NCBI GenBank assembly: GCA_003567725.1
Contig: PWYU01000071.1
Span: forward strand, 1-56,759
DNA: 56,759 nucleotides
Reading direction: 5' to 3'
DNA from: Syntrophomonadaceae bacterium
GTDB taxonomy: Bacteria > Bacillota > Dethiobacteria > DTU022
Part shown: piece after piece, positions 33,648 through 52,373 of the stretch
Position numbering within the stretch: position 1 is the first letter of the stretch
Layout: each line of letters begins with the position of its first letter
Program-made: the position numbers and the translations under genes
The notes under the pieces: model-generated
The model's input: the letters and a program-made list of their open reading frames with translations, nothing else
What the model was told of the DNA's origin: nothing
The model's database searches: none

Positions 33648-34925
33648 TTATAACATACAGGGGAGATTTTCAACCTTTTTGCCGCTTAAATAGCACTGAT
33701 CAGTCCAGAGGTAATCCCATTCTCCAAAGCGCCCCACTGAAAGTATGCCCTTTTTCTCTAAAAATTCCAGGATTATCCTGCGTTTATCCTGCATCCCCTT
33801 TTCAAAGACCACATTGGCATAGGGCAGGATGCGGCAGTCGGTCACAGCCAGATCTGAAGTTTTAAACAGGCCCATTTTTTCAGCTGCTCCGGTGACATGC
33901 TCAAGCAGGGTCTCTTCTGCCATGGGCAAAGGCTTATACCGGGAAAAATAGGTCTCAAACTGCAGGGAGCTACAACCTTCCGGGGCATTATCGGGCGATT
34001 TACGGTAAGGGGCATGCCCTCTGGCCGGCAGTATTTCCCGATCGTAGATGTAAAACCAGAGATGATCGCCGGCCTGCGGCACTTTAAGCCCAATGGAAAC
34101 CAGGGCAATAGCAGTAGCCCACAATTCCCCGGCGGCCTCTAGAACCGGAGCGGGCGCATTATCGATCATTTTAGCTATCTCCGGCAGGGGCAGGGAGCTA
34201 ACCAGGTGTTCATAATGTTCCTTGCTGCCATCCCGGCACTCCACCACCTGGCGCTGTGTATCAATCCTGACCACTTCTTTGCCGGTCCGCAGATCCAGTT
34301 CTTCAACCAGCGGGTCAAAAATAGCCCTGAAGCCGCCCCGGCGGGGATAATAAAGCTCTGGCAGATAGTATGTTAAGGGGGTGTCATCGGTCATGGCCCC
34401 GAAGAGAACTTCTTCCAGGGATGGGCGGTAGAGGCGGTTGCCGATCCAGTCCGTGCTTAAGTCTTCAGGGGGCACGGTCCAGTATTTTTCAGTATAGCGA
34501 GCCGGGTAGCGATCGGCGATAACCTGTCCAAATTGTTCGTACAGCCAGGAGCGATAATTAGATCCTTCTTCCCGGGCGGGCCTTTCTATAAAGCTCTTGA
34601 TCGCCTCCACCTTTTCTTCTGTCGGCAGCGGGTAGAGGTTGTTTTGCACCGGATGCTTTAACCAGCGTCCCTGTTCATAATTATAGGGTTCGGGACGGTG
34701 GGTGATCAGATCAGCCTTTTCAAGCAAAGCCGAATAAGCTTCGTTTTTACTGAAGGCAAAATGAACGGCGTGATCAAAGCGAAAACCTGCTTTATGGAAA
34801 TGATCGCACAGCCCCCCGTAGCGCTCCCTTGCTTCTAATAATACCGTTTCTTTTCCGGCCTTCCCGGCATGATAGGCCGCCGAGATGCCGGCCGGGCCGG
34901 CGCCTAATACTAAGATTTCGGCCAT
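33648..34925 (-). CDS. FAD-dependent oxidoreductase of a polysaccharide cluster
   Basis: A 425-residue flavoprotein with an N-terminal dinucleotide-binding fold: LVLGAGPAGISAAYHAGKAG, then LLEARERYGGLCDHF. The architecture resembles amine oxidase/protoporphyrinogen oxidase-like and UDP-galactopyranose mutase-like proteins that occur in glycan loci (FDHAVHFAF, YTEKYWTVPPEDLSTDWIGNR). The substrate is unknown; a mutase or a sugar oxidoreductase are both possible. Its start overlaps the upstream sugar transferase gene by 16 bases, so the two are translated together. Confidence 0.75.
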   Translation of the reverse strand: MAEILVLGAGPAGISAAYHAGKAGKETVLLEARERYGGLCDHFHKAGFRFDHAVHFAFSKNEAYSALLEKADLITHRPEPYNYEQGRWLKHPVQNNLYPLPTEEKVEAIKSFIERPAREEGSNYRSWLYEQFGQVIADRYPARYTEKYWTVPPEDLSTDWIGNRLYRPSLEEVLFGAMTDDTPLTYYLPELYYPRRGGFRAIFDPLVEELDLRTGKEVVRIDTQRQVVECRDGSKEHYEHLVSSLPLPEIAKMIDNAPAPVLEAAGELWATAIALVSIGLKVPQAGDHLWFYIYDREILPARGHAPYRKSPDNAPEGCSSLQFETYFSRYKPLPMAEETLLEHVTGAAEKMGLFKTSDLAVTDCRILPYANVVFEKGMQDKRRIILEFLEKKGILSVGRFGEWDYLWTDQCYLSGKKVENLPCML

Positions 34926-36289
34926 GTCAACCTCCCCAGGGCCTCTTTGCTCAAACCGCGGGCCGCTTCGCGGTTAAATAAAGTCGGCACGGTTAAAAGC
35001 AATATTCTAAAATCCATTAAAAGCGAATTATCGGAAACATAATAAAGATCGTAGCGCAACTTATCGCGGGTATTGGTGGCATAATAGCCGGCCACCTGGG
35101 CCAGGCCCGTAATTCCCGGTTTAACCAGGTGCCGCAGGTTGTATTCAGGCATTTCTCCTTGGAACAAAGCTACAAAATAGGGGCGTTCCGGGCGGGGCCC
35201 CACAATACTTACGTCCCCCCGTAAAACGTTATAAAGCTGGGGCAGCTCATCCAACCGCGTAGCCCGCAGGAAACGCCCGACAGGGGTAACCCGGTCATCT
35301 TCTTCGGTGGAAAAAACCGGTCCGCTTTTTTCCTCAGCGCCGGTGATCATGGTGCGCAGCTTGTAAAGAGTAAAAATGCGGTTTCTGAAGCCGACCCTTT
35401 CCTGGGCAAAAATAACCGGGCCCGGTGAAGTCACTTTGATCAAAATGCTCAGCAGCAGCATCAAAAGCAGGGCCGGGGCGGCCATTACCAGAGCCAGGGT
35501 TAGATCAGAGAGCCGCTTGCTGAAAAGGCGGCTGAAGGTGATCTGCATATCTCGGCACTCCACCACCGGGGTGTCGTGCACCTGGGTAATCATGGCCCTG
35601 GTGAGAATAATTTCATACAAACCCGGTACAATAAATACTTCCCGGTTGCTGTCAAAACATTCCCGGATCACCCGGTTTTTATCTTCCAGCTCTAAAGTGC
35701 CGGTGATCATCACCGCATCCACCTGCGGCAGCCACTCTGGAAACTCTTCAACCTGGTCCGGCCCGATCACCTTGACCACTTCAAAAACCCCGCGGGGCAG
35801 GCACATTAATTTTTCCAAAGCCTGCTCCACTTCTTCTGCGCTGCCCAGCACTAAAAGCTTCTTCTGGCCGTGAATCCAAAGCTCCAGACGCCAGTAGAGC
35901 AGGCGCCAGCTGACAAGCAGAGCCAGCTGCAACAGCGGGGCAGCCAGGAAAACACCCTGCTGAAATATAAAAGCCCTGGTCCAAAAAGCAAAGAGCACAC
36001 TGAAAAGAGCGAGGCCGATTACACCGGTAATCAGTGAACGTATAACCGGCATCAAACCGCTTAGCTGCCTGGAGTAAAGGCCGAGATTGTTAAATAAAAA
36101 AGCGGTCACCAGGGATATTAAGGGCAGAAGTAAAAACAGTGGTTCCAGCTGAAAACCCTGCAGATCACCGGTCACGAATACAAAGGCAAAATATAGCCCC
36201 AGGTTGACCAGTGAAATATCTACCAGGGCAACCAGCCATTTGGGTATACCGCCGGTTTTTACGTGACCCCCATCTTTAGTAAACCCCAT
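34910..36289 (-). CDS. Polyprenyl-phosphate sugar-1-phosphate transferase
   Basis: A 459-residue initiating transferase that loads the first sugar phosphate onto undecaprenyl phosphate. Start ATG 36289, with GGAG upstream. Residues about 10-125 hold several transmembrane helices, then a Rossmann-like domain (KKLLVLGSAEEVEQALEKL). From about residue 260 the catalytic domain follows, with KRLSDLTLALVMAAPALLL, SPGPVIFAQERVG, FTLYKLRTM and RLDELPQLYNVLRGDVSIVGPRPE. WbaP/WcaJ-type architecture. It defines the block as a lipid-linked glycan pathway. Confidence 0.93.
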   Translation of the reverse strand: MGFTKDGGHVKTGGIPKWLVALVDISLVNLGLYFAFVFVTGDLQGFQLEPLFLLLPLISLVTAFLFNNLGLYSRQLSGLMPVIRSLITGVIGLALFSVLFAFWTRAFIFQQGVFLAAPLLQLALLVSWRLLYWRLELWIHGQKKLLVLGSAEEVEQALEKLMCLPRGVFEVVKVIGPDQVEEFPEWLPQVDAVMITGTLELEDKNRVIRECFDSNREVFIVPGLYEIILTRAMITQVHDTPVVECRDMQITFSRLFSKRLSDLTLALVMAAPALLLMLLLSILIKVTSPGPVIFAQERVGFRNRIFTLYKLRTMITGAEEKSGPVFSTEEDDRVTPVGRFLRATRLDELPQLYNVLRGDVSIVGPRPERPYFVALFQGEMPEYNLRHLVKPGITGLAQVAGYYATNTRDKLRYDLYYVSDNSLLMDFRILLLTVPTLFNREAARGLSKEALGRLTWPKS

Positions 36290-36426
36290 TATCAACTCAC
36301 TCCGCCCGACATTTAAGCTGTGAAAATTTGTGCTGCTGCTTATAGCTCTTTACTTTATCATTCTCCTGTTTTATCTTCTTGATTTTAGCTTCGTTTTCCT
36401 GCCTCTGGCCCGCCGGCGGTTTTTAA

Positions 36427-37473: not shown

Positions 37474-37746
37474 GGTCTTTACTTTTCCTTTCAAACCTTT
37501 TACATAACCTTATCCCGGAAAAACCGGTGCCATAAAATACTAAACTGCAAATTGACCCCCTATAAACTTATTTCAAATCTGCGGTTCCGGGATCGCTATA
37601 ATAATCTCTGCTAAAAGGTGCAGGACTTCAGAATTAAGGGCCTTATCATGATGCCCTTTCAATATTTAATCCGGCCTGCTTGAAGATCAGCAAGTGCAGT
37701 TTTATTAAGCAGGCTGGGCAATTACTAAAGATTAACCTTTAGGTGT

Positions 37747-38904
37747 TCAATGCTGATGCCTGGTCATAATCGCCTTGATATCTTCAAAGCGGTTGCGCCA
37801 GGTCTGCTGCCGGGCAAAATTGCGCCCGGCTTCCTTTTCTTTCGCCCCGGCACGAAGGGCTTCTCTCAGGGCCACTACAAACCCTTCCCGGTTACGATAG
37901 GCATAAAGCGGCCCCCGCATGGCTCCCAGTTCCCGCAGCGGCGGGGCCACCACCGGCAAGCCGCAGGCCAGGTATTCATAATACTTAATCGGATTAACCG
38001 CCTCGGTTAAATCATTCAGACGGAAAGGAATCAAACCTAAGCTGGCCTGCTGCAGGTAGGCCGGAGCAAGCCGGTGAGCCCTGGGGCCAAGCCAGGTGAT
38101 GTTTTTCTCTTTTAGTAAAATTTGCAAAGCGGGCTTCAGGTTTTTATCGGTCAGGGGACCGATGAGCAAAAAGTGGAGATCTTTCATGGCCAGGACACCG
38201 TGGGCCAGGGTTTCTAAATCAAAGCGGGTATCAAGGGTCCCCAGGTAAACAGCCACCGGCTTGCCGTCAGCGGGAAAATCAGCGGGTTTTTCCAGGGCCG
38301 CTTCAAAAAAATGATCCTCCACCCCGTTTGGCAGGTAATAGACCTCTTCCGTCCGCACTTCCCTAACCCAATCCAAAAGCGATTGCGATGTAGCCAGGAC
38401 AAAATCGACCCTCCGGATCATCTCTTTTTGAAGCTCCCCCACCCCCGGCGGTATGCGCCTGAACTTATCAAGCCGGTCGGCCAGGCGGTAGCAGCTTAAA
38501 TTATGCGGGATCAGATCCAGCAGGCTTAAGGCTACCGGGCCGGCGCACCAGAGCAGGTCGGCCGGGTAAAACCCGCTGTTCTTCAACTTATTATTCAGGG
38601 CAGGCAGGCAGAAACGGTACTGGTTGCGCCCGATATAATTACTGCGCAAAAAAGGCAGGTTGTAGTAAAAAAGGAAGCTGAAAGGCACCAGCCAGTCGAT
38701 ACCGTCCACCCGGTGCCCGCCATGCCGCCAGATTCGGAAACGGTGACGGTTTAAGGCATCAGGCTTAAACAGGTGCAGGGGGCTGAGCGCCGGCCCCAGC
38801 CACAAACAGTCATGGCCGTCTTCCTTGAACAGGCGGATGTATTGGTGCGAACCGAGCGGATCGGGCCGATCTAAGTTGTGAGACTCGGCAAAAATTACTT
38901 TCAT
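37747..38904 (-). CDS. GT-B glycosyltransferase (group 1 type)
   Basis: A 385-residue enzyme with a C-terminal donor-binding domain typical of group 1/GT4-like transferases: VAVYLGTLDTRFDLETLAHG, FLLIGPLTDKN, ITWLGPRAH, and the E-x7-E-like segment NPIKYYEYLACGLPVVAP. The N-terminal half carries the acceptor domain (DRPDPLGSHQYIRLF). It resembles TuaH-type surface-polymer transferases. ATG start; the upstream 640 bases hold only repeats. Confidence 0.87.
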   Translation of the reverse strand: MKVIFAESHNLDRPDPLGSHQYIRLFKEDGHDCLWLGPALSPLHLFKPDALNRHRFRIWRHGGHRVDGIDWLVPFSFLFYYNLPFLRSNYIGRNQYRFCLPALNNKLKNSGFYPADLLWCAGPVALSLLDLIPHNLSCYRLADRLDKFRRIPPGVGELQKEMIRRVDFVLATSQSLLDWVREVRTEEVYYLPNGVEDHFFEAALEKPADFPADGKPVAVYLGTLDTRFDLETLAHGVLAMKDLHFLLIGPLTDKNLKPALQILLKEKNITWLGPRAHRLAPAYLQQASLGLIPFRLNDLTEAVNPIKYYEYLACGLPVVAPPLRELGAMRGPLYAYRNREGFVVALREALRAGAKEKEAGRNFARQQTWRNRFEDIKAIMTRHQH

Positions 38905-39542: not shown

Positions 39543-40694
39543 TTAGTTGGCCAGGGAGGCTTTTAGTATGGCCCGCACGTCTTCCAGGCCGGCCGGGCAA
39601 AGGTTATTGCCGGAGCGCTCCGGGGTAAACATCTGCTCAGCCAGGGCCAGAGCATCTTTTGCTTCCAGGCCGTACTTTTTTAATAGCTCCCTTACCCCGA
39701 TGACGTTAAAAAGCTCTTCCAGGCGCCGGGACAGCCCGCTTATTTCGCCACAACCGATCATCTGAGCTGCCATCTGCAATCGCCCGTCATCGTGTTTGGC
39801 GTTATAGGCCAAAAGGGCCGGCAGGGTAAATCCGCAGGCCAGCCCGTGCGGGACACCCAGGGCGGATGTTAGCGGGTAAGACATGGAATGAGCCAGGGCA
39901 GTTCTGGTTACGCTGATGCAAACACCGCCAAAATAACTGCCGGTAAGCATCATGGCCCGCCTTTCTAAATCCTGCGGCTTTTCCACCACTGCAGGCAGAA
40001 TCGTTAAGACAATATCAATGGCCCGGGCGGCGTAGCTTATGCTGATCGGGCTGGCATTGCGGTTCCAGACCGATTCTAAGGCGTGGGACAGGACATCCAG
40101 GCCGCTAATAATAGTTGTTTCCTCCGGTAAGGACAGGGTCAGCTCCGGATCAAGCAAGGCAGCGTCCGGGTACAGATCGGGATGGATTAGGGAATACTTT
40201 TTGGTGCTCATATCATCCCAGATAGTAGCAAAAGGGGTGGCTTCGCTGCCGGTTCCAGCCGTTGTGGGAACAGCGATCATATATAGTGGGGGCCTGTCCG
40301 GCAGGGGCGCCTCCCCACCGAGGTGTTTTCGCAGGGAAAACTGCGCATCGTCAAGGCCCAGTAAAATACTGAGCGCCTTGGCCGTATCAAGGACGCTGCC
40401 GCCGCCGACTGCGATTACAGCATCAACCTCTTCATTTTCCAGAAAAGCCCGGTGCCCTTCTATGGAAGCAATATCGGGGTTGGGGCTGACCCGGTCAAGG
40501 ACTGTTACCCGCCGCCCTCCTAAAAGCGCCTTTACCCGGCCGGTAAGACCTCTTGCTGTTGAGCCTGCTGAAGTGATAAGCAGAACCTGATCAGCGCTTT
40601 CTTCCGGCAGATAAGAGTCCAGCTCGTTTATCACTCCCGGTCCGGAGGCAACCTCTACCGGGTTGTAAAAAGACCACTTCCGGTCATAATGCAT
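39543..40694 (-). CDS. Iron-type alcohol dehydrogenase, probable phosphonoacetaldehyde reductase
   Basis: A 383-residue group III (Fe-dependent) alcohol dehydrogenase. The cofactor loop is GGGSVLDTAKA near residue 100. The metal ligands are the Asp and His in GLDVLSHALESVWN and the two His in AHSMSYPLTSALGVPHGLACG. Members in phosphonate clusters (PhpC-like) reduce phosphonoacetaldehyde to 2-hydroxyethylphosphonate. That fits here, because PEP mutase and phosphonopyruvate decarboxylase are in the same run and no transaminase is. The start lies 2 bases after the stop of the upstream nucleotidyltransferase. Enzyme class secure; substrate inferred. Confidence 0.85.
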   Translation of the reverse strand: MHYDRKWSFYNPVEVASGPGVINELDSYLPEESADQVLLITSAGSTARGLTGRVKALLGGRRVTVLDRVSPNPDIASIEGHRAFLENEEVDAVIAVGGGSVLDTAKALSILLGLDDAQFSLRKHLGGEAPLPDRPPLYMIAVPTTAGTGSEATPFATIWDDMSTKKYSLIHPDLYPDAALLDPELTLSLPEETTIISGLDVLSHALESVWNRNASPISISYAARAIDIVLTILPAVVEKPQDLERRAMMLTGSYFGGVCISVTRTALAHSMSYPLTSALGVPHGLACGFTLPALLAYNAKHDDGRLQMAAQMIGCGEISGLSRRLEELFNVIGVRELLKKYGLEAKDALALAEQMFTPERSGNNLCPAGLEDVRAILKASLAN

Positions 40695-40696
40695 AT

Positions 40697-41437
40697 TTAT
40701 CCCTCCCGGCCCCTGGCAAAATAGTTTTTCGCCTTTTCTAAATCTTCACAGTCATCTATTTCCATGCAAAACTCATTATTAAGCTCCACCGGGTACAGGG
40801 CAAGATTTGAAAGCAGGTTATTCAGGGCATTTTCAGCATACACTGTAAGCTCTCCCTTAGCCTGGAAACGCTTCATTTCTGCCAGCCAGGCTGAGAAAAC
40901 TTTTGCGGACAGCCTGTAAAAGGGGATCAGAAAAACGCTGTCTTCATCAAATAAGTCAACCCCGATCTTTTTAACCAGGCCTCTTTTTATTGTTGCCTTA
41001 AAATCTTTATCAGGAAGCTCAATGGTGGGATTGGTTAATACCAAATCGGGGTTGTCTGCTTTAAGCAGCTGCTCTAAAACCACCCGGTCAAATACCAGGT
41101 CACCGTGCAGCAGGATAACCTCCCCGCAGCCTTTTTCCATGATATAATCACCGGCCAGGATGAGTGAATAAATGTAGTTGGTCTGCGCGTAGGCGGGATT
41201 GTTGATCAGGCTGACCGGCGCTTTTTCAGGAAATCGTTTAAGATAATCCGCAATCTGATCCGCAAAAGGCCCCGTGGTAATTAAGATATTCTCAAGGCCG
41301 AAATCTTTAAAAATCCTCAGCTGCCGCCCCAGGATGGTTTCCTCTCCATCAATTTCCACCAGGCACTTGGGCCTGTTTTGGGTTAGCTCTTTCATCCTCG
41401 AGCCTGTTCCTGAATTTAGGATGATAACCTGAATCAC
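40697..41437 (-). CDS. LicC-like nucleotidyltransferase, probable CTP:phosphonate cytidylyltransferase
   Basis: A 246-residue NTP-transferase. GTG start with AAGGGGG six bases upstream. It has the sugar-nucleotide pyrophosphorylase loop ILNSGTGSRMKELTQNRPKCLVEIDG, GEVILLHGDLVFD with the first metal-binding Asp, and the C-terminal metal site NEFCMEIDDCEDLEKAK. These are the features of LicC (phosphocholine cytidylyltransferase) and the related PntC-type phosphonate cytidylyltransferases. Next to a PEP mutase run and LicD genes, CMP activation of a phosphonate is the best guess. It could still activate a sugar phosphate or phosphocholine. Confidence 0.82.
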   Translation of the reverse strand: MIQVIILNSGTGSRMKELTQNRPKCLVEIDGEETILGRQLRIFKDFGLENILITTGPFADQIADYLKRFPEKAPVSLINNPAYAQTNYIYSLILAGDYIMEKGCGEVILLHGDLVFDRVVLEQLLKADNPDLVLTNPTIELPDKDFKATIKRGLVKKIGVDLFDEDSVFLIPFYRLSAKVFSAWLAEMKRFQAKGELTVYAENALNNLLSNLALYPVELNNEFCMEIDDCEDLEKAKNYFARGREG

Positions 41438-41622
41438 TAGTGGCCCCCTTATTCATTGAATTACCCCATCTGTATAGCGGTCCTCATCTGGCTGCACTGC
41501 TATTTAAAAAGTGTGCCACCCGGCCCGGTTGCAGGCGTTTTTAAACCAGCCCTGCTTTTTTTAGCCTTCAGTTACACTATTTCCACACTAAAAAACCGCT
41601 CCAGGCAGTTTCAAGGCCTCTC

Positions 41623-42756
41623 TTACCGGCCCGCTTGCAAATATTTCATGAAAGCGGTTTTATTATCCTCAGGTGTGGTTTTCGGCCGGCCCAGATCTTT
41701 CCTGGCGCCTTTGCGGACGCGGATTTCAAGCAAAGCCGGGCCTTCTTCAGACTTAATTTTATCCAGGGCCGCTTCCAGCTGCCCTGCTGTATCGGCCCTC
41801 AGGGCCTGCTGGTAACCGCAAGCCCTGGCCACCTGCGGAAAGTCAACTTGAAATCCCGCTGTGGCCTGCCCGCCCACCGAATCGTGGGCGCTGTTGTTAA
41901 AAATCAGATGATAGAAATTATTAGCCCCGCTGTTTCCGCTGATGGCTAAAGCGCCCATATGCATGATTACCGCCCCATCGCCGTCAAAGCAAAACACCCG
42001 GCGCCCTGGCTTTTTCAGGGCGACTCCTAAAGCAATCTGGGAAGCGTGGCCCATGGAGCCGACGTTTAAAAAATCGCGGCTGTGCCCCCCGCCTTTTTTC
42101 TCGCGGTATTCATAAATTTCCCGGGACAGCTTACCGGTAGTGGAAACTACCACCTCTTCTGAATCCAGCCTGGCCAGGATTATTATTAGCGCCTCTTCCC
42201 GGCTCATCTTGTAAAATTCACCCGGCTTTTTTTCTGACCGGTAGGCGCTGAAGGTGCCCTTTTCCACCACCAGGGCAAAGGGCGCAGCTTTGGTGCGCAT
42301 ATAATCTGCCGCGTGGGCAACTACTTCTGCCGCTTCCTGCTCTTTAAAAGGCATGATTTTATATTCTATACCCAGGGTCTTTAAAAGGGGCAGGGTTATA
42401 AGCCCCTGCTTGATATGCTGCGGCTCATCGGGCACTTGCGGTTTTCCCCGCCAGCCGATTAAAAGCAGCATGGGGATATTGTATACCAGGGGATCTGCCA
42501 GGGAAACCAGGGGGTTAATGGCATTACCCAGCCCTGAATTCTGCATATAAACCAGGCCGGGACGCCTGCAGGCCAGGTATTGGCCCGCGGCCAGGGCCAC
42601 TGCGTTACCTTCGTTGGCTGCAACCAGGTGGTTCTCAGGCGAAGCGTGGTCAGTTATGTAAGCGGATAAATCTGAAAGCAGGGAGTCGGGAACCCCTGTA
42701 AAAAAATCAATACCTTCTTTTTTTAAAGCTTCAAAAAAAAACCGGCACTCTATAAT
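41623..42756 (-). CDS. Phosphonopyruvate decarboxylase; possible ATT start
   Basis: A thiamine diphosphate enzyme converting phosphonopyruvate to phosphonoacetaldehyde, the step that makes the PEP mutase reaction irreversible. N-terminal IECRFFFEALKKEGIDFFTG, then VPDSLLSDLSAYI; the ThDP site GDGAVIMHMGALAISG followed by FNNSAHDSVGGQ. The open frame has an ATG at 42834, but it lies 26 codons inside pepM without a ribosome-binding site. Homologues begin at the I-E/I-K position, which here is ATT (42756), one base after the pepM stop and eight bases after GGGGGG. I place the start at ATT, giving 377 residues, the usual length. Function secure, start inferred. Confidence 0.9.
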   Translation of the reverse strand: MIECRFFFEALKKEGIDFFTGVPDSLLSDLSAYITDHASPENHLVAANEGNAVALAAGQYLACRRPGLVYMQNSGLGNAINPLVSLADPLVYNIPMLLLIGWRGKPQVPDEPQHIKQGLITLPLLKTLGIEYKIMPFKEQEAAEVVAHAADYMRTKAAPFALVVEKGTFSAYRSEKKPGEFYKMSREEALIIILARLDSEEVVVSTTGKLSREIYEYREKKGGGHSRDFLNVGSMGHASQIALGVALKKPGRRVFCFDGDGAVIMHMGALAISGNSGANNFYHLIFNNSAHDSVGGQATAGFQVDFPQVARACGYQQALRADTAGQLEAALDKIKSEEGPALLEIRVRKGARKDLGRPKTTPEDNKTAFMKYLQAGR

Positions 42757-42757
42757 T

Positions 42758-44056
42758 TTAGCTACCCCCCGGGATGAGATGCAGGATGTCCTTAATGGGC
42801 ATGCAGTAGTCTTCGCTTTCGCAGGCCCGTTCATTTTCTAAAATACAGCGGGCCGTATTGACCATGGCCGGATAAGCGCTTCTTAACAGATGGTTGGCAT
42901 AGATCACGATATTCACCCCGGCTTCAGCTAGCTCGCTTTCTTTGACCAGGTTGTAGGTGGTGGGCACCGCCACCAGGGCTGCTTTTTTGTTAAACTTGCG
43001 GTATTCCCGGCAAAACTCAAATATTTCATCAGGTTCTTTTTCCTTGCTATGGATCATAATCCCGTCCGCCCCGGCTTTTAAGTAAGCGCGGGCTCTTTGC
43101 AGGGCATCTTCTACCCCGGCCTTTAAGATCAGGCTCTCGATGCGGGCAATAACCATAAAATCTTCCGCCACCTGGGCCTGTTTGCCCCTGGTGATCTTTT
43201 GACAGAAATTCTCGATGCTGTCCTGCTGCTGCTCCACTTCGGTCCCAAAAAGAGAGTTTTTCTTCAAACCGATTTTATCTTCAATAATAACCGCCGAAAC
43301 GCCGAGCCTTTCTAAGCTTTTCACCAGGTAGGCAAAGTGCTCCACCTGCCCGCCGGTATCACCGTCCATGATAATCGGCTTGGTGGTAACCTCTAAAATA
43401 TCATTGATCGTATTTAAGCGGGAACTGGAATCGACCAGTTCGATATCCGGTTTTCCCTTCACGGTAGAATCGCACAAACTGCTGACCCACATTCCGTCAA
43501 ACTGCTTGACCATATCGCCCTGGCTTACTTTTAACTTCTCCACAATCAGGCCGGTCAGCCCGTTATGGGCTTCCATAACCCTGACCACAGGCTTTACGTC
43601 AAGCAGCTTGCGCAGGCGGTTAATGCGCAGCTGAGGAGTGGTCCCCACATCCTGTAAAGCCTGCTCCAGCATGCTCACCGATACGCCCTTGGTATATTCA
43701 ACTTCTACCAGCTCTCCGCCCCATTCTTTTAATGCTTCGATCACTTTTTCCCTGATTTCCTGCTGCACACCGGTTTTCCAGTCATCACCGTGCACCACAT
43801 AATCGGGCTTCAGTTTCATTAAATTGGGGACGTAATCAAGCGTATCCTGCGCGACAACCCGGCTGACCCCTTTTAAATTTTCAACAATTTTCTTGCGCTG
43901 TTCAAAATCTACTACAGGCAGCCTTTTATAAGTGGCTATAACCTCATCGGTTAAAATACCAACTGTAACATCGCCCAGTTTCCTGGCTTCTGCTATAACA
44001 TTAATATGGCCATGATGAATGATATCAGCACTCATGGCCAGGTATACCTTTTTCAT
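42758..44056 (-). CDS. pepM: PEP mutase with N-terminal cytidylyltransferase domain
   Basis: A 432-residue bifunctional-looking protein. Residues 1-140 are a TagD/CCT-type nucleotidyltransferase with HHGH (14-17, the HxGH motif) and TKGVSVS (122-128, equivalent to the RTxGIS motif). Residues about 150-432 are phosphoenolpyruvate mutase, with DGDTGG (231-236) for Mg2+ and the diagnostic [10 protein letters not shown] (259-268). The mutase makes phosphonopyruvate, the entry to nearly all C-P bond compounds. Whether the N-terminal domain makes a CMP-phosphonate is inference. The downstream decarboxylase is nearly fused to its stop codon. Confidence 0.95.
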
Positions 44057-44380
44057 TTCTCACTCCCCTTTAACGGTGCTAAGCACTGTGCCTGCCAAAG
44101 TTTCAACGAGCACAGCTTCTTGCCTTATTATATTTCGCTAAAGAACAGAAAAATCCCTTTTTAAGGACCTGTTTAACTAAAACTATAGCTGTAGCAGGAA
44201 AATGACACCAGCGTAATCTCTGCCGGCCCTTCGCTTTGCCAGGGTAACAACCAAACCGTGCCCGCCGGCGCGGCCGGGCTTTAACTTTTCGCTGCAGCAG
44301 GGGATAAAAACTGATCCGAAAGGCTTTCCCGGGTAGATAGCTGAGCAGGTAGATCACCTGAAAACAGGCAATTTATAAGC
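44057..44380. other. Non-coding gap between licD-like gene and pepM
   Basis: About 320 bases with no supported gene; short open frames here (for instance one rich in Arg, Ala and Lys at 44103-44357) have no start signals or family features. None of the dispersed repeats is present. It may hold a promoter for the pepM genes, but I see no clear -35/-10 pair. Confidence 0.4.
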
Positions 44381-45061
44381 TCAGCGGTTAAAAATGGCCA
44401 CCAGTTTTTCAGGGCTGGTATGTTTAATGGCCCCGTCATCAAATATGAAAAACCAGTCTTTACGAGGCACCTGCCACTGGCCATAGCGGAAAACCAGGTA
44501 ATCGCGGTAATCTTTCGGGACGGGAATACCGTCATAAAAAGAAGCGGTTTCCTTAAAAAACCGGCCCGGGATCCACATCATATAAACCTTGTAGGTGGTA
44601 GTCCAGGGCCAGTTGTGAAGCGAAACGGCCCCTTTCCTGATAAATATCTCCTGGATGATGCGGTGGGGCAGGGCATAAAGATAATAAAATAAATTCTTGT
44701 TTACAAAAGGATAGGGCATGCAGTAGACCTGCGGGCACCAGGCATAATTCTGTTCCTGTCTGAACAGGCTGATATCAATATCCAGAGAGGAACTTTTAAA
44801 ACACGGCGAAAACTTGTATTTAAAATTCAGGCCGCGGTAATTTTTAACCGATACCTTGTAACCCCGTTTTTTAACAGCGGGCAGGATCTTTTTAAGCTGC
44901 TCTTCATTACCGGACCACATGCTAATATCCAGATCATGATCGCCTTCAATGACCCGGCCTTCCCGGGCCAGGCCAAGCAGGGTTCCACTGTCAATCCAGT
45001 ATTCTACCCGGTATTCATTGAGCAAATTGCAGATCCAGTTTAATTCTGGGTTAAGGCTCAT
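44381..45061 (-). CDS. LicD-family transferase, paralogue 1
   Basis: A 226-residue LicD-type (nucleotidyltransferase-fold) protein. It shows SGTLLGLAREGR (25-36) and the metal site DHDLDI (41-46), then a C-terminal block WQVPRKDW..FDDGAIK. LicD moves phosphocholine from CDP-choline to teichoic acid or glycan; relatives transfer other CMP- or CDP-activated phospho- or phosphono-groups. GGAG lies eight bases before ATG. It is the third of three licD-like genes in a row, 16 bases after the second, and the next cluster downstream is pepM. Acceptor and donor are inferred. Confidence 0.87.
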   Translation of the reverse strand: MSLNPELNWICNLLNEYRVEYWIDSGTLLGLAREGRVIEGDHDLDISMWSGNEEQLKKILPAVKKRGYKVSVKNYRGLNFKYKFSPCFKSSSLDIDISLFRQEQNYAWCPQVYCMPYPFVNKNLFYYLYALPHRIIQEIFIRKGAVSLHNWPWTTTYKVYMMWIPGRFFKETASFYDGIPVPKDYRDYLVFRYGQWQVPRKDWFFIFDDGAIKHTSPEKLVAIFNR

Positions 45062-45077
45062 CTAATTTACTCCACTC

Positions 45078-45830
45078 TTAAGGGCTTATCGCTCCATCAT
45101 CCTGCCAGTACAACCACCTATCCCTGGGCACCCGCCAATCCGGTCCGTATTTTAGGGCCAGATATTCCTGTGGATTACCGGGAACGGGCAGCTTACGCCC
45201 GGCCAGGGTTATGGTTTCCAGATTTAAAAAATATTTTTCATCCACGGCCATTTTAAAAAAAGGCCGGAAATAATACTGGCTTCTACCTGCACTATAACAC
45301 AAAATATTCCATAGCGGCACGGGAATTATTTTCGCCACCGCTGCTGAAAGGGTTTTTCTCATACCTGGAGCAAATTTTTGTTCAACTGTCCCCTCCCTGG
45401 CATGAGCGCAAAATAAGACTGTGTTGATTAAAACTTTAACAACCGGACCGGCAACGGGATAGCAAACATCTTTCACTGCCCGGCCCTCCTCACAGCGGTA
45501 AAAGGCAAGATTGATCATATTAAACTTACCCTCTAAATCAGTAACCGTCAGCTGATGCGGTTTATAGGTTTCAATAAAGCGCCCCTTTTTTTGCAGGCAC
45601 CTTAAAATCTCGCCCCTATTCTTAAGGTAATCCTCACCCCAGAGGCCCAGATCAAGATCGTGATCGGTTCTTAAAAGCCTTCCCTCCCGGATGATCCCGA
45701 GCAGGGTGCCCTGGTCAAGCCAGTATGGAACTTTTAAGGTCTCGAGGGTAGCAGTTACTTCTCTGAACAGGTTATGTTCCTCCAGGCTGCCTGTTCTTGT
45801 TCCAGCCCTGTCATTATCGTTACCGGCCAT
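45078..45830 (-). CDS. LicD-family transferase, paralogue 2
   Basis: A 250-residue LicD-type protein, with QGTLLGIIREGR (40-51) and DHDLDL (56-61). The C-terminal block is WRVPRDRW..WQDDGAIS. The middle part differs from the other two copies. It has a hydrophobic stretch around residues 130-145 (VAGPVVKVLINTVLF). Its ATG overlaps the stop of paralogue 3 by one base (TAATG), so translation is coupled. The three copies are too different to be a recent duplication and may act on different sites of the glycan. Confidence 0.87.
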   Translation of the reverse strand: MAGNDNDRAGTRTGSLEEHNLFREVTATLETLKVPYWLDQGTLLGIIREGRLLRTDHDLDLGLWGEDYLKNRGEILRCLQKKGRFIETYKPHQLTVTDLEGKFNMINLAFYRCEEGRAVKDVCYPVAGPVVKVLINTVLFCAHAREGTVEQKFAPGMRKTLSAAVAKIIPVPLWNILCYSAGRSQYYFRPFFKMAVDEKYFLNLETITLAGRKLPVPGNPQEYLALKYGPDWRVPRDRWLYWQDDGAISP

Positions 45831-46696
45831 TATCTCTCCTGCGCTTTTTTCCGGGCCGCTTTTAATAACGCAGCCCCTCTCCAGGCCGGATAGCCTGATA
45901 GATCATAGATTCTTTCCGGTTTTACCTGCTTCAGGGCCCCGTCATCTCTCCATATGTTCCATTTGGGTGCCGGGGTGCGCCAGTTGCCATAGCGGTATAT
46001 TAAATAATGATCCCACTGCCGGGGAATATAGCAATTAAACAAAGGGTGATAAACCCTGCTGGAAAATAAAGGCAGCGGCACCAGCCAGGTTCCCACCCGG
46101 CGGCGTGCTTTCCAGGGCCAGCGGGTAACCTCTGTTACAATCAAGCGCTCGCGCAGTTTCCTCCTGGCCGCCACAAAATAATGGTATAGATATTTGGTTA
46201 TTTCTCTTGGAAACGGCGGCCCGATTCCTTCACCTGCCGGGCACCAGGCCAGGTCGTGCGCCTGCCTGAAAAGCATAACATGAACGGGCAGGTGATCTTC
46301 TTTTAAAAAACGGTACTGGCAGGCAAGCCCCCTGTATAGCCAGATAGTTATCTGAAAGCCTTTTTCCCACAGCAGGGGAATTAGCCCAAGCAGTTTTTCT
46401 TCGTCTTCGGCCCACATCTGCAAATCAATATCTTTTTCATGGCCCAGCAGCCGCCCTTCCCGCATCAGGCCGAGTAATACCCCGCTGTCAACCATATAAG
46501 GGACAGCATGTTCATTTAAAATAGAGGTGAAAAACCGGTAGTCCTTACTTCTTGGCGGCAGCAAAGCCGGGCCCGGTGGTAAATCAGGCCTGCTTTTTTC
46601 TGCTTCATGTAACCTCAGGTCTTCTTTATTACCATCCTTACCAGTAACCGGTTCCTGCTTTTTTAGTTCTGCTGCTCTTCCTTCATCTGCTCTCAT
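45830..46696 (-). CDS. LicD-family transferase, paralogue 3
   Basis: A 288-residue LicD-type protein with an extra charged N-terminal stretch of about 50 residues. SGVLLGLMREGR lies at 71-82, and the metal site reads EKDIDL (87-92) in place of DHDLD; that is also found in LicD proteins. The C-terminal block is WRTPAPKW..WRDDGALK. First gene of the minus-strand run that continues through the other LicD genes to pepM. The region upstream (46697-47108) is shared with the divergent exporter genes. Confidence 0.85.
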   Translation of the reverse strand: MRADEGRAAELKKQEPVTGKDGNKEDLRLHEAEKSRPDLPPGPALLPPRSKDYRFFTSILNEHAVPYMVDSGVLLGLMREGRLLGHEKDIDLQMWAEDEEKLLGLIPLLWEKGFQITIWLYRGLACQYRFLKEDHLPVHVMLFRQAHDLAWCPAGEGIGPPFPREITKYLYHYFVAARRKLRERLIVTEVTRWPWKARRRVGTWLVPLPLFSSRVYHPLFNCYIPRQWDHYLIYRYGNWRTPAPKWNIWRDDGALKQVKPERIYDLSGYPAWRGAALLKAARKKAQER

Positions 46697-46876
46697 TTTA
46701 AAAGATCCCTTTCCAGTACCGGCGCCAGGTTTTTCACTTAAAACCTTTTCTAGACCTTTTACGGTAGGCCGTAAATTTAAGCGCCTGCTTTTATTAAAAG
46801 ATTATTTTATAACAAACTTTATTAAACGTCTGTATAAAGAACACTTATATTCTTACAGGCCATTTTCCTTTAAATT

Positions 46877-46955
46877 AGTAACTACCCAGCCTATTGTCTT
46901 TGTTTAATGATAAGCGGCGCCTGTGGCTTAACGGACTAGGCCTCAGTAGTTACTT
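46877..46955. repeat. MITE-like element, short copy between licD-like genes and exporter
   Basis: A 79-base copy with inverted ends AGTAACTACCCAGCC and (other end) GGCCTCAGTAGTTACT, and a core AATGATAAGCGGCGCCTGTGGCTTAACGG. It matches the reverse complement of the 10555 copy. It occupies the 412-base divergent region 46697-47108, whose remaining sequence is AT-rich without a recognisable promoter consensus. Confidence 0.8.
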
Positions 46956-47108
46956 AAATTAAAGTATTTTTCCCGGTACTACAAAAATATTTCTTTTAAT
47001 CAGATCATACCCCGCAGAACCAAAAAATCAAGCTTTAATTTGACTTTTAAGGTGCCGCTCTTTACAATCATTGTGGGGCCTGCTGGAAAGGAGCCCGGTA
47101 CAGAAACG

Positions 47109-47885
47109 ATGAGCGAATACTTAAGAGAGCTGTTCAAAAGAAAAGACCTCATGATCTACCTGGTAACCTCAGGGCTAAAAGCCCAGTACCGGAACACTTT
47201 CCTGGGCTACCTGTGGTGGATCCTCGATCCGCTGCTAATGGGCGCTGTGTACTACTTCCTGCGGGTGGTAGTGCTGGGCATGGAAGGTGAGTATGTCGGC
47301 GCTTTTTTAATCACCGGCCTTGTAGCCTGGCACTGGATCAACTCCAGCTTAAAAGGGGCCGCCTCTTCCATCAGCGGCCGCTCCCGCATCATAACCCAGG
47401 TTTACCTGCCCAAGGCCATCTTTCCTTTTGCGGTAAATATAACCCAGCTGATTAATTTTTCCTTCGGCCTGGTCGTGGTGGCCATTTTCCTGGCCGCCTA
47501 CCAGATCGTTCCCGGCAGCCGGGCCTTGTGGTTACCGGTGATCATGGCTGTCCAGTTCATTTTCCTGGCCGGGCTCTCCCTGGTGGTGGCCTACCTGTGC
47601 ATGTTCATCCGCGACATCGACAACGTCCTCACCCACGTGATGCGGATCTGGTTCTGGGGCACGCCTGTAATCTGGGAAGCCGGTCGCCTTGATGAACAGT
47701 ACCATTTCATTTTCGACATCAACCCGGCCGCCATCCTTTTGATCAGCTACCGCAACGTGCTGATGTACAATGCCGAACCCGAACTGGGCAAACTGGCCCT
47801 AATTGGCGGCCTGTCTGTAATCCTGACCCTGTACATGATCCGTTTCTATCACCTGAACGAACACAAGATTATCAAGGCCCTGTAA
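47109..47885 (+). CDS. ABC-2 type glycopolymer exporter, permease (TagG/Wzm-like)
   Basis: A 258-residue membrane protein with six hydrophobic segments. I start it at ATG 47109 (MSEYLRELFKRKDLMIYL), the usual N-terminus of this family. A GGAG lies 15 bases upstream, which is long. The frame opens further up to a TTG at 47040 with residues unlike the family. It has the cytosolic helix ending SGLKAQYRNTFLGYLWWILDP and the C-terminal YRFYHLNEHK-like end. TagG/Wzm partners export lipid-linked teichoic acids or O-antigens. The ATPase follows after 90 bases. Confidence 0.9.
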   Translation: MSEYLRELFKRKDLMIYLVTSGLKAQYRNTFLGYLWWILDPLLMGAVYYFLRVVVLGMEGEYVGAFLITGLVAWHWINSSLKGAASSISGRSRIITQVYLPKAIFPFAVNITQLINFSFGLVVVAIFLAAYQIVPGSRALWLPVIMAVQFIFLAGLSLVVAYLCMFIRDIDNVLTHVMRIWFWGTPVIWEAGRLDEQYHFIFDINPAAILLISYRNVLMYNAEPELGKLALIGGLSVILTLYMIRFYHLNEHKIIKAL

Positions 47886-47975
47886 AACGGATCCCCAGTA
47901 TGTTTTGACTTATTAAGAAGAATTTCAGTTTTTAAACTGCTATCACCCAACCAAATCAAGAAGCGGTGACCGGTC

Positions 47976-49517
47976 TTGGAACATCAAAAAAGTTTGCAAC
48001 TGCAAAAAGAACTGTCTCAAAACGATCCCGGGGTCCTGATCCGGGCAGAAAACCTGGGTGTCTATTACGAAAGCGATACTGAGCGCCGGGATGACTTTAA
48101 ATCGCATGTCCACCGTTTCATCCGCGGCGAGCGCCAGAACGATATTTTCTGGGCCCTGAAGGATATCAGCTTCACCGGCTATGCCGGCGACGTCTTAGGG
48201 GTAATCGGACCCAACGGGGCCGGTAAAACCACCCTCTGCCGGGCCATTGCCGGACTGCTCCGACCCAACCGTGGCACCCTCGAGGTAAAAGGCAGTGTAT
48301 CGGCCCTGCTTTCGCTTGGCACCGGTTTCAACAAGGAACTGACCGGCAATGAAAATATCTACTTAAACGGAATGATGCTCGGCTTTTCCCGCAAGCAAAT
48401 CAATGAACTCCTGCCCCTGATCCAGGAGTTTTCCGGCCTGGGCCGCTTCCTCGATCAGCCCCTTAAGTATTATTCCAGCGGCATGAAAGCACGCCTCGGC
48501 TTTAGCATTGCTTCGGTTATCGAGGCCGAAATCCTGGTCATCGACGAAGTGCTCGGCACCGGAGACATGGAATTCAACGAAAAAGCGGTCCAGAAAGTCT
48601 GGGAGCTGGTGAGCGGCGCGCGCATGGTCCTGGTGGTTACCCATGAAACCGAATTTATCAAGGAACACTGCAGCCGGGCCCTCTGGATCGAAAACGGCAG
48701 CATCAAAGCTTCAGGTGATCCGGTTGAGGTAGCCGGCGCCTACGAGCAGCTTGCTTCCGGCACTGCTAAACCGAAGAAAAAGAAGCTCTCCCGCCTTAAA
48801 AAAACCAGGCAGGAAAAGGGAGAGGGAAAAGCGATCGAAGCCCGGGACTTAAGCCTGGAGTTTAAATTAAACGGAGAACCCTTCCGGGCTTTAGACAATC
48901 TCAGGTTTGATGTTTTCGACCGTGAAATTATCGGCATCATCGGTCCCAACGGGGCCGGAAAAACTACCCTGTGCCGCACCTTATGCGGCATCTACAGGCA
49001 GGATTACGGCAGGCTAGAGGTAAACGGGACTATCGCCGCCCTGCTCAGTTTTGGCACCGGCTTCAACCCCCAGCTTTCGGGCTACGACAACATCTACTTA
49101 AACGGCATGATGCTCGGGATCCCCAGGAAAACTATTCAAAAGGTGGAAGATGAGATTATCGCATTCTCAGAGCTGGATCAGTTTATCGACCAGCCGGTAA
49201 AGCACTACTCCAAGGGCATGCGCTCTCGCCTCGGCTTCAGCATCGCTTCCATGCTTAAGCCCGATATCTTCATCGTCGATGAAGCCTTATCGGCGGGCGA
49301 CATCTCCTTCCAGGAAAAAGCCGCGGTCAGGATGCAGGAAATGCTGGAAGAAGCCAAGGCCGTCTTAATCGTCACCCACAGCATGAAGATCGTCAAGAAG
49401 GTCTGCACCAGGGCCCTTTTAATGGACCGGGGCCGGATCATTTTTGACGGCGATCCCCTTGAGGCGGTCGATATTTACCGCACCTCGGTCAAGAGGAAAA
49501 AGGAAAAGTTTAAATGA
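47976..49517 (+). CDS. ABC exporter ATPase with two fused nucleotide-binding domains (TagH/Wzt-like)
   Basis: A 513-residue protein with TTG start. Two complete Wzt/TagH-type ABC domains lie in tandem. Domain 1: Walker A GPNGAGKTT (78-86), signature YSSGMKARLGFS, Walker B LVIDEVLG, H-loop VVTHE. Domain 2: Walker A (323-331), signature YSKGMRSRLGFS, Walker B FIVDEALS, H-loop VTHS. A basic linker (KPKKKKLSRLKKTRQEKGEG) joins them. Single-domain ATPases dimerise in normal Wzt/TagH systems; here one chain would supply both sites. No C-terminal carbohydrate-binding domain is present. It powers export of the glycopolymer through the TagG-like protein. Confidence 0.93.
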   Translation: MEHQKSLQLQKELSQNDPGVLIRAENLGVYYESDTERRDDFKSHVHRFIRGERQNDIFWALKDISFTGYAGDVLGVIGPNGAGKTTLCRAIAGLLRPNRGTLEVKGSVSALLSLGTGFNKELTGNENIYLNGMMLGFSRKQINELLPLIQEFSGLGRFLDQPLKYYSSGMKARLGFSIASVIEAEILVIDEVLGTGDMEFNEKAVQKVWELVSGARMVLVVTHETEFIKEHCSRALWIENGSIKASGDPVEVAGAYEQLASGTAKPKKKKLSRLKKTRQEKGEGKAIEARDLSLEFKLNGEPFRALDNLRFDVFDREIIGIIGPNGAGKTTLCRTLCGIYRQDYGRLEVNGTIAALLSFGTGFNPQLSGYDNIYLNGMMLGIPRKTIQKVEDEIIAFSELDQFIDQPVKHYSKGMRSRLGFSIASMLKPDIFIVDEALSAGDISFQEKAAVRMQEMLEEAKAVLIVTHSMKIVKKVCTRALLMDRGRIIFDGDPLEAVDIYRTSVKRKKEKFK

Positions 49518-49628: not shown

Positions 49629-50732
49629 ATGATAAATTTTTTTTCAGCAAAAATTGGCTCACCTGTAACAGAAATAGATACCCCGGCGCTTCTATTGGAT
49701 GCTGATATTTTAGAGTCAAATATTAAAAAAATGGCCGGGTTTGCAAACAATGAAGGAATTTCTTTAAGGCCTCATTTTAAAACCCATAAATGCCCTGCTC
49801 TGGCCCATAAACAGATCGAAGCCGGAGCGATTGGAATAACCTGCGCCAAAGTCTCCGAAGCGGAAATAGCGGCAACCAGCGGCATAAAAGAGATCTTAAT
49901 CGCCAACCAGTTAGTCACCGCAGAAAAAATCGAAAAGCTGGTATCTTTAAACCGGCACGGTAACGTCATGGTCGCTGTAGATAGCATTCATAATGCAAAA
50001 GCTATATCAAAAGCAGCTGCCAAAAGAGGGCAAACAATAAATGTAGTTATCGAAAGGGATGTCGGCCTGCAGAGGTGCGGAACCAGGTCTCTGGATGAAA
50101 CCTTAAAGCTCGCTCAAGCAATGGAAAAACTTCCTGGCCTTCAAATGGCAGGCTTAATGGGCTACGAAGGTCACACGGTCTTTTTAACTCCCGAAGATAA
50201 AAGAGCAGAACAGTGTAAGATTGCCATGGAAACCCTCTTAAAGACAAAAGACGCTTTATCTAAAAACGGCTTTCCTGTTGATATTGTCAGTGCCGGGGGG
50301 ACCGGCACCCATGAGATTACCGGTAAATACCATGAGATAACTGAACTCCAGGTAGGCAGTTATGCTACCATGGATTGGAAATATAAGGAATCTGGAATGG
50401 ACTTCTCTTTAGCCCTTTCTGTCCTGGGAACAGTGGTAAGCACTCCTGAAAAAGATAAAGCAATAATTGACATTGGTATGAAAGGGATTACAACAGATTT
50501 CGGGTTACCGGTAGTAAAAAACTTAAAAGGCGCCTCGTTAACTTCCCTGTCAGAAGAACACGGCATAATAAAATTAAACGGAGACGCCTGTAAACTTTCA
50601 GTTGGTGATAAGCTGGAACTATATCCAACGCATGGCTGCACAACAATTAATCTTTACGATAGTTTCTATGTCATCCGTAACAACTACCTGGAAACAACCT
50701 GGCCCATTGCAGCAAGAGGTGCTGTTAGATAA
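49629..50732 (+). CDS. DSD1-like PLP enzyme (alanine racemase fold; D-threonine aldolase / D-serine dehydratase type)
   Basis: A 367-residue fold-III PLP enzyme. ATG start with AAAGGAG upstream. It opens EIDTPALLLDADILESNI, has the PLP lysine in RPHFKTHKC (Lys51), TCAKVSEAE, GYEGHTVF, and the metal-binding C-terminal HGCTTINLYD with its His and Cys. Family members cleave D-threonine-like beta-hydroxy amino acids or dehydrate D-serine. No neighbouring gene explains its role, and it is more AT-rich than the exporter genes before it. Reaction not settled from sequence. Confidence 0.85.
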   Translation: MINFFSAKIGSPVTEIDTPALLLDADILESNIKKMAGFANNEGISLRPHFKTHKCPALAHKQIEAGAIGITCAKVSEAEIAATSGIKEILIANQLVTAEKIEKLVSLNRHGNVMVAVDSIHNAKAISKAAAKRGQTINVVIERDVGLQRCGTRSLDETLKLAQAMEKLPGLQMAGLMGYEGHTVFLTPEDKRAEQCKIAMETLLKTKDALSKNGFPVDIVSAGGTGTHEITGKYHEITELQVGSYATMDWKYKESGMDFSLALSVLGTVVSTPEKDKAIIDIGMKGITTDFGLPVVKNLKGASLTSLSEEHGIIKLNGDACKLSVGDKLELYPTHGCTTINLYDSFYVIRNNYLETTWPIAARGAVR

Positions 50733-51505: not shown

Positions 51506-51955
51506 ATGAGGCTCATGATAAAAAATAAAAAAGAGTTCAAAACTATATGTAAAAAAAACTCGATCGCCCTGGCCTACTTGTTTGGATCCCAGGCTGAAGA
51601 GGGGTTAAAACTGCTTAACGGTGAAAAAGTTAGGCCCGTTGATTCAATGGCCGATCTGGATCTGGCCATTGTGTTCAATAAAAACTTGCCTCCTTCTAAT
51701 CAGCTGCCCAGGTTTTATGCAGATTTATATAATCTATTGGCAGACTTATTCCTTCCCTTTTCCCTTGACCTGGTGTTTTTGCAAGAGCAGCATTCAGTTT
51801 TTCAAGCCCAGGCAGTTACAAATATCTGCATTTACGCCGAAAATGAAGCTTTTAAGAGTGACTATGAAGAAAATGTAATGCGCCGGGCTGCCGATTTTAA
51901 ACCGTTTTTGGAAAAATTTTTCGAAGAAAGGTTAGAGAAATATAACTATGCTTAA
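51506..51955 (+). CDS. MNT-domain nucleotidyltransferase, antitoxin of a MntA/HepT pair
   Basis: A 149-residue minimal nucleotidyltransferase. The active site is GSQAEEG (Gly27-Ser28) with Asp50 and Asp52 in ADLDLAIVF; an insertion of about 10 residues separates the two parts. The remainder is the typical FSLDLVFLQEQHSVFQAQ strand-helix and RAADFKPFLEKF end. Its stop overlaps the HepT start by 8 bases, the usual coupled order. In studied pairs the protein AMPylates a Tyr of HepT to silence it. A second ATG at codon 4 is equally possible as start. Confidence 0.87.
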   Translation: MRLMIKNKKEFKTICKKNSIALAYLFGSQAEEGLKLLNGEKVRPVDSMADLDLAIVFNKNLPPSNQLPRFYADLYNLLADLFLPFSLDLVFLQEQHSVFQAQAVTNICIYAENEAFKSDYEENVMRRAADFKPFLEKFFEERLEKYNYA

Positions 51956-52373
51956 TAAGCTGCTAATAAAACAAAGATTGAGCATGATCGATGATTTTTG
52001 CCGGGAGCTGGAGCTGCTTCAAAAAATGCCTGAAGATCAGTTTCTGGAAATAAGAAATATTGCGGCTGCAGAAAGCTTTCTGCGCCGCTCGCTTGAAGCA
52101 ATTTTTGATGTCGGACGACACATACTGGCAAAAAGCGGTCACCTTGATCTGGCCGGCGAATACAAAAGTATTGCTCAAGGGTTGGCCAAACAAAATATTA
52201 TAACTGAACAAATGGCAGACACCCTTTTTAAAATGGCCGGTTACAGAAACCGCCTGGTAAACTTGTATCATCAAGTAACTAATGAGGAACTGCACTTTAT
52301 AGTGCAAAACAATATAGCTGATCTGCGTGAATTCACAAAACAGATCAACTCGTACCTCTCCCGTCTGGAGTAA
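51948..52373 (+). CDS. HepT-like (DUF86) HEPN toxin with altered active-site motif
   Basis: A 141-residue, all-helical HEPN protein. The active-site region reads GYRNRLVNLYHQV (residues 99-110). HepT toxins normally have R-x4-6-H-x-Y, here expected as RNRLVHLY. In this copy the expected His is Asn105, while Arg100 and Tyr107 (the AMPylated Tyr of the family) stay. A shifted His108 follows the Tyr. So the RNase may be inactive or altered. Coupled to the upstream antitoxin by an 8-base overlap; convergent with the DUF4143 ATPase 3 bases away. Confidence 0.85.
   Translation: MLNKLLIKQRLSMIDDFCRELELLQKMPEDQFLEIRNIAAAESFLRRSLEAIFDVGRHILAKSGHLDLAGEYKSIAQGLAKQNIITEQMADTLFKMAGYRNRLVNLYHQVTNEELHFIVQNNIADLREFTKQINSYLSRLE

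Follow-up and report, generated by a model that had tools for sequence, protein, structure and literature searches.

A phosphonate gene cluster with two candidate cytidylyltransferases in a Syntrophomonadaceae bacterium, possibly for a glycan bearing 2-hydroxyethylphosphonate

According to Rice et al. (2019, PMC6697681), the genes found near pepM, the gene for phosphoenolpyruvate (PEP) mutase, include those for PepM-fused cytidylyltransferases, LicC-like enzymes (PntC) and LicD-like phosphotransferases. Fusions with PF01467 make up 23.6% of the PepM proteins described there and triple fusions approximately 3%, some clusters combine a fused enzyme with a separate one, and the steps after PepM are called enigmatic. 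A lipopolysaccharide choline phosphotransferase is reported from pepM/aepY/phpC neighbourhoods (PMC9381506), phosphonate-bearing glycans have been proposed for marine bacteria (PMC8931226), and methylphosphonate and 2-hydroxyethylphosphonate (HEP), present as polysaccharide esters, make up as much as 20% of the phosphorus of high-molecular-weight organic matter in the sea (PMC9381506). Here we describe a related gene cluster at positions 39,543–49,517 of a stretch of 56,759 nucleotides (the window), which is one whole contig (PWYU01000071.1) of the draft genome of a Syntrophomonadaceae bacterium (GCA_003567725.1; 2.39 Mb, 127 contigs, 95.9% complete, 3.5% contaminated). The original prediction for this region was that cytidine monophosphate (CMP)-linked HEP is made and transferred by LicD proteins to an exported polymer, and that no such system had been described. 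The first part is the reading that the genes support best; the claim of novelty was overstated in view of Rice et al. and PMC9381506, and the relevant passages of these papers and of PMC8931226 make the pathway type a known one.

The Pnt clusters of Treponema denticola, Olsenella uli and Atopobium rimae resemble the window in combining a PepM–nucleotidyltransferase fusion with a separate LicC-like PntC; LicD-like or glycosyltransferase genes lie near them, and a cell-surface product has been proposed (PMC6697681). They make 2-aminoethylphosphonate (AEP) via a transaminase, whereas the window contains a putative reductase gene instead and a His in place of an amine-contacting acid. The features general to Pnt clusters are thus present as far as the PntC/LicC-type enzyme and the LicD-like phosphotransferase near pepM are concerned, and no AEP transaminase was found in the cluster. 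The fusion of PntC to the transaminase in Treponema has a counterpart in a fusion of LicC to alcohol dehydrogenase (ADH) in one related locus, L089 (4443–6251).

The fosfomycin pathway of Streptomyces, in its Fom1, Fom2 and FomC steps, shares with the window a cytidylyltransferase–PepM fusion (Fom1), a decarboxylase and a dehydrogenase on the way to CMP-HEP. The window differs in its altered GISST motif, in its additional LicC-like enzyme and in the presence of LicD proteins in place of antibiotic tailoring. The Lic pathway of Streptococcus pneumoniae is similar in that an enzyme of LicC fold carries out a CTP-dependent activation and LicD the transfer, whereas here the genome gave no choline kinase match, putative reductase and PepM genes adjoin, and His replaces Asp105 of LicC. 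A TagG/TagH-like pair is present as in teichoic-acid-type ABC export, and TagD, which would indicate a glycerol-phosphate teichoic acid, was not found over its cut-off in the genome. The genes of the cluster are as follows.

39543..40694, minus strand: Fe-type ADH, proposed phosphonoacetaldehyde reductase yielding HEP (Pfam Fe-ADH; TIGR03405)
40697..41437, minus strand: LicC/PntC-like cytidylyltransferase, proposed CMP-HEP synthase (fold matches of the AlphaFold2 model, aligned residues)
41623..42834, minus strand: phosphonopyruvate decarboxylase, Ppd (TIGR03297; GDG...NN thiamine diphosphate motif)
42758..44056, minus strand: fusion of a Fom1-type cytidylyltransferase (residues 1–136) and PEP mutase (residues 148–430) (PDB 5x3d, CTP_transf_like, PEP_mutase, TIGR02320)
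44381..45061, minus strand: LicD1, proposed phosphonyl transferase (Pfam LicD, 29.4 bits, cut-off 22.6)
45078..45830, minus strand: LicD2, proposed phosphonyl transferase (Pfam LicD, 31.9 bits, cut-off 22.6)
45830..46696, minus strand: LicD3, proposed phosphonyl transferase (LicD motif and orthologue clade; below the Pfam LicD cut-off)
47040..47885, plus strand: TagG/Wzm-like ABC exporter permease (ABC2_membrane, 27.5 bits, cut-off 26.9)
47976..49517, plus strand: TagH/Wzt-like tandem double ATPase (ABC_tran twice; NF010066 TagH, 368 bits, cut-off 320)

All genes named in the original prediction were found at their places, from pepM to the three licD genes on the minus strand with tagG and tagH divergent from them; the Fom1-type domain fused to PepM and the second ATPase domain of TagH had been overlooked, and consequently the competition of two enzymes for the CMP-HEP step was not seen. 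The mechanical start of the Ppd reading frame overlaps pepM, and the real start is probably further in. The closest named PepM relatives belong to Syntrophomonadaceae metagenome-assembled genomes (MAGs), with that of locus L018 being 92% identical. In L018 and L019 these genes recur in identical order, and likewise in L022 up to the contig end; therefore, the gene set is not a chance assembly. Within the phylum, relatives of PepM are uncommon: 13 of 398 sampled genomes have one, counting the window's own.

In the pathway proposed here, PEP would be converted to phosphonopyruvate on the PepM domain, phosphonopyruvate to phosphonoacetaldehyde by Ppd, and phosphonoacetaldehyde to HEP by the Fe-type ADH. 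CMP-HEP would then be formed from HEP and CTP, most likely by the LicC-like enzyme, in which the amine-contacting acid is now His, while the Fom1-type domain fused to PepM would have lost or changed its role in this step. In the cytoplasm, the LicD proteins would use CMP-HEP as donor and attach its phosphonyl group to hydroxyls of a lipid-linked polymer; the decorated polymer would be exported through TagG/TagH, and its fixation to the wall may be the task of LytR-CpsA-Psr (LCP) proteins. We regard the pathway as a whole as quite probable, whichever enzyme makes CMP-HEP. The complete assignment, in which the cluster makes HEP and puts it on an exported glycan, the LicC-like enzyme supplies CMP-HEP and the role of the fused domain is lost or changed, is given an even chance.

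For the first two steps, both proteins exceed curated cut-offs, with PepM scoring 418.8 bits against TIGR02320 (cut-off 319.55) and Ppd 501.4 bits against TIGR03297 (cut-off 312.5). PepM carries the EDKxxxxxNS motif, which reads [10 protein letters not shown] from residue 259, as noted in the original prediction. After the decarboxylase, a reductase would lead to HEP and a transaminase to AEP. The ADH of the window contains D200, H204, H269 and H283, which we take to be its metal ligands, and its placement beside Ppd and PepM is retained in relatives. An AEP transaminase over cut-off was found neither in the cluster nor elsewhere in the genome (best match 202.1 bits, cut-off 360.8), and AEP as the product was therefore set aside; weak matches of this kind occur in 14 of 14 control genomes, none of them over the cut-off. 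Among the best 80 named loci of at least 574 PepM loci, a set biased for this reason to near relatives, the 8-kb neighbourhoods contained Ppd in 77, ADH in 62, and an AEP transaminase in 6 (by a profile from a single Clostridium seed, so that distant transaminases may be missed). Both ADH and AEP transaminase were present in none, and neither in 12, several of which lie on short contigs; the four transaminases scanned from the loci all pass TIGR03301. LicD was found in 30 of these loci, TagG in 9 and a LicC-like gene close by (within 4 kb and >150 bits) in 23.

A related question is whether LicC and LicD instead add phosphocholine or AEP, with the phosphonate genes serving another end. The family names LicC and LicD would suit this, as would the fact that LicC (PDB 1jyk) ranks second among the folds matched by the model of the LicC-like protein. 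However, no PF01633 (choline kinase, LicA) match was found in the genome at E 0.1 in a search that covered this kinase family, while 8 of 14 control genomes have one; the lack of an AEP transaminase over cut-off, the His at the amine-contacting site and the location of the LicC-like gene between the ADH and Ppd genes likewise argue against it. Phosphocholine decoration was set aside on the kinase result and the His, and this alternative is very improbable. CDP-glycerol as the LicD donor was also set aside, because the sole genome match to TagD is the PepM-fused domain (48.4 bits, cut-off 165.4). Since neither an AEP transaminase nor TagD exceeds its cut-off, choline kinase has no match and no LicD other than the three of the cluster was found in the genome, transfer from CMP-HEP by LicD to a glycan is the best reading.

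The AlphaFold2 model of the LicC-like protein (predicted local distance difference test, pLDDT, 94.0; built with 22 sequences) is most similar in fold to PntC-AEPT 6pd2 (Z 29.8, root-mean-square deviation 2.0, 236 aligned), then to LicC 1jyk (Z 26.3, deviation 2.2, 225 aligned), followed by many other sugar nucleotidyltransferases at Z 24–26. D113, E226 and D228 are conserved. The amine of the substrate is contacted by Glu104 and Glu196 in Treponema PntC and by Asp105 and Asp192 in LicC (Rice et al. 2019, PMC6697681), residues that align to His111 and Glu202 of the window enzyme (profile alignment, positions counted by hand). At the first of these sites, His is present in all 19 readable ADH-linked LicC rows (the twentieth, L109, ends before the site), whereas Glu is present in all 13 rows linked to AEP transaminase (12 loci); four more rows, from loci with neither gene in reach, split 2/2. 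Together with the altered ISS motif of the fused domain, discussed below, and the LicC–ADH fusion of L089, this His makes it probable that the LicC-like enzyme is the one that acts as HEP cytidylyltransferase. A triple fusion of LicC, cytidylyltransferase and PepM is encoded in L113 (6331–8334). The loci with ADH and a His-type LicC include that of a cultured relative, Lachnotalea glycerini DSM 28816 (L061). ADH and a His-type LicC also occur on two archaeal MAG contigs, L036 and L065 (Thermoplasmata and Pacearchaeota), which may reflect inter-domain transfer or mis-binning.

In the fused protein, residues 4–136 match PDB 5x3d (entry label: PEP phosphomutase), presumably the Fom1 domain, with E=1.2e-51, and the PEP mutase match extends over residues 148–405. 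In fosfomycin synthesis, the N-terminal domain of Fom1 makes CMP-HEP (Rice et al. 2019, PMC6697681). The fused domain of the window keeps HHGH and YKRLP, and the GISST motif of the pyrophosphate site, present in most relatives, reads GVSVS. Of the 34 scored loci that have a LicC-like gene, 32 show an altered ISS motif, against 1 of the 34 that lack the gene (Fisher 1.4e-15, uncorrected for relatedness); in a first cut of 81 rows, 65 of them scored, the numbers were 22/24 and 1/41. The larger count uses the 68 of 93 rows that are scorable for both traits, leaving out 23 named loci with <3 kb of flank on one side and without a LicC match, L107 (contig end) and L113 (LicC in the same frame). The LicC states of L106–L117 were entered by hand, and L118 (the same contig as L035) and L119 (a fragment) were excluded from counts. 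The GIS core is gone in 11 of the 12 added Bacillota loci, being kept only in L106, and the six Clostridium-type loci with AEP transaminase in the named set are also without the YKRxP lysine. At a mutase identity of 60–65%, the fused domains are 46% identical in altered-motif pairs versus 67% in intact pairs (206 and 339 pairs, respectively, which are non-independent).

All 55 intact-motif rows have Ser at position 127, where the window has Val. Val127 and Ser128 align to the first and second of the last two positions of the signature of CCT, and Plasmodium CCT with Ala at either of these positions, including the Thr that matches position 127, is described as practically inactive (PMC6060094). 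For the far Bacillota loci, loss of function of the fused domain is likely; in the window, the domain may have kept or lost its function, and its good conservation within the window's genus spoke against adopting a plain dead-domain reading. This conservation (in 15 near rows, 70 of the 136 positions do not vary) and the retained HHGH and YKRLP favour an alternative in which the fused domain still makes CMP-HEP and the LicC-like enzyme activates a second, different phosphonate or phosphate; two CMP-linked donors would then serve the three LicD proteins, whose old, separate clades suggest different jobs. However, besides Val127 and the Plasmodium result, no second donor pathway was found among those sought (choline kinase, TagD, AEP transaminase), and the LicC–ADH fusion of L089 points to HEP as the LicC substrate, although the ISS motif of L089 is intact. 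We consider such a two-donor arrangement unlikely.

Returning to the LicC-like enzyme as the source of CMP-HEP, several observations weigh against this reading or narrow it. L065 and L089 combine LicC with an intact ISS motif, and L090 has an altered motif and no LicC match. The motif change requires four steps on the smaller tree and one on the larger, so that it may have a single evolutionary origin and its link to LicC may be one event; likewise, the ADH-linked LicC rows are probably one clade, and the change to His may have occurred once. Independent contrasts between LicC presence and motif state yielded 2 supported pairs in the first cut and 1 in the larger set, which is too few. Within the window's genus, the fused domain and the mutase are 90% and 93% identical to those of L018 and 90% and 88% to those of L019; being about as conserved as the mutase, and with HxGH and the lysine kept, the fused domain may still work. 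The best NCBIfam model for the window ADH is TIGR03405 (Phn_Fe-ADH), with 346.6 bits against a cut-off of 423.7; five ADH relatives scanned are also under this cut-off, and four of them have TIGR03405 as their top model. What each enzyme uses and makes, how the work is divided between them, the acceptor, the export and the attachment are deduced from the genes, and the sugar and LCP genes are tied to the polymer of the cluster only by neighbourhood.

Gene identities, motif states and neighbourhoods are direct observations. More generally, a LicC-type enzyme may have become a dedicated HEP cytidylyltransferase through the change from Glu/Asp to His and displaced the Fom1-type domain, which would survive in a non-catalytic or re-purposed form in a large set of PepM fusions from several phyla; we advance this tentatively, at slightly less than even chances. 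If this is true, some of the fused domains now listed among the nucleotidyltransferases of phosphonate clusters would not be the working ones, and the annotation of fused PepM proteins would change. His111 would be a residue that predicts HEP versus AEP from sequence, and the locus, as a compact HEP-type gene set, allows a direct test of which of the two cytidylyltransferases works. The link between ISS and LicC, the change from Glu/Asp to His at the amine site and the LicC–reductase fusion look new. Neither the change to His in reductase-linked LicC nor its association with the state of the fused domain turned up among the top matches in the open-licence literature, where pepM, LicD and phosphonate biosynthesis jointly returned nothing, and phosphonate, LicD and cytidylyltransferase jointly returned Rice et al. 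alone. The main text of that paper (PMC6697681) does not contain the terms inactive, degenerate or catalytic residues.

Two of the three LicD proteins pass the Pfam cut-off, and LicD3 misses it (19.9 versus 22.6 bits) while keeping the LicD motif and having orthologues, so that the original count of three family members is upheld. FKRP is a CDP-ribitol-dependent transferase. It is the best PDB match of the LicD profile (E=1.4e-16) and, as PDB 6kal and 6kam, the closest solved fold of LicD1 (model pLDDT 82.7; 6kal, Z 14.9, 153 aligned; next LnuA, Z 12.7), with 20% identity over the 153 residues. In a quick tree of 49 rows, LicD1, LicD2 and LicD3 form three clades with their relatives (8, 8 and 7 rows; support 99, 99 and 100); the genes are thus old and probably not redundant. 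In the class, 18 of 96 genomes have LicD matches, 16 of 97 have PepM, and 13 have both. Of the five LicD-only genomes, L121 and L122 have LicD3-LicD2-LicD1 in order on contigs that end before the place of pepM, and the LicD genes of L123 (G037) are of another kind. TagH has two ATPase domains with two Walker A motifs. Two such motifs are also present in the TagH of all eight relatives looked at, which suggests a one-chain ATPase pair for a TagG-type permease.

The adjoining of three LicD genes and a TagGH-type exporter, and the grouping of ADH, LicC, LicD and TagG in 6 of the 80 best named loci, argue against a phosphonolipid or a small secreted phosphonate as the end product. Such a product would be in line with the place of Fom1 in fosfomycin synthesis (Rice et al. 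2019, PMC6697681) and, for a phosphonolipid route, with a CDP-alcohol phosphatidyltransferase gene near the PepM–cytidylyltransferase fusion in L042 (12297–12989) and L059 (11305–11976). However, neither Fom3 nor another antibiotic-tailoring enzyme was detected among the cluster genes, to which the scan was confined, and we consider a non-glycan product improbable.

With a glycan again taken as the acceptor, further genes on the minus strand beside the cluster could contribute to the polymer.

30892–31881 and 31899–33470, minus strand: two LCP proteins, possible polymer attachment (PF03816 in both)
34910..36295, minus strand: polyprenyl glycosylphosphotransferase that may initiate polymer synthesis (TIGR03025, 371 bits, cut-off 295.55)
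36427–37494 and 37747–38904, minus strand: two glycosyltransferases, possible polymer synthesis (PF00535, PF13692)

Both glycosyltransferases are retained beside the cluster in L018 and L019. TagG/TagH and a relative of the glycosylphosphotransferase lie beside the cluster in L018, L027, L028, L030 and L033; in L018, TagG and TagH are up to 17 kb from this relative. A scan for promoters and terminators gave numbers near those of shuffled sequences (16 versus a shuffle mean of 12.2, and 16 versus 15.3) and was not used. Directly downstream of the exporter genes, 49629–50732 encodes an enzyme with Ala_racemase_N and D-ser_dehydrat domains, and a pair of Polbeta nucleotidyltransferase and HepT-like genes near the cluster (51506–52373) has a toxin–antitoxin-like arrangement.

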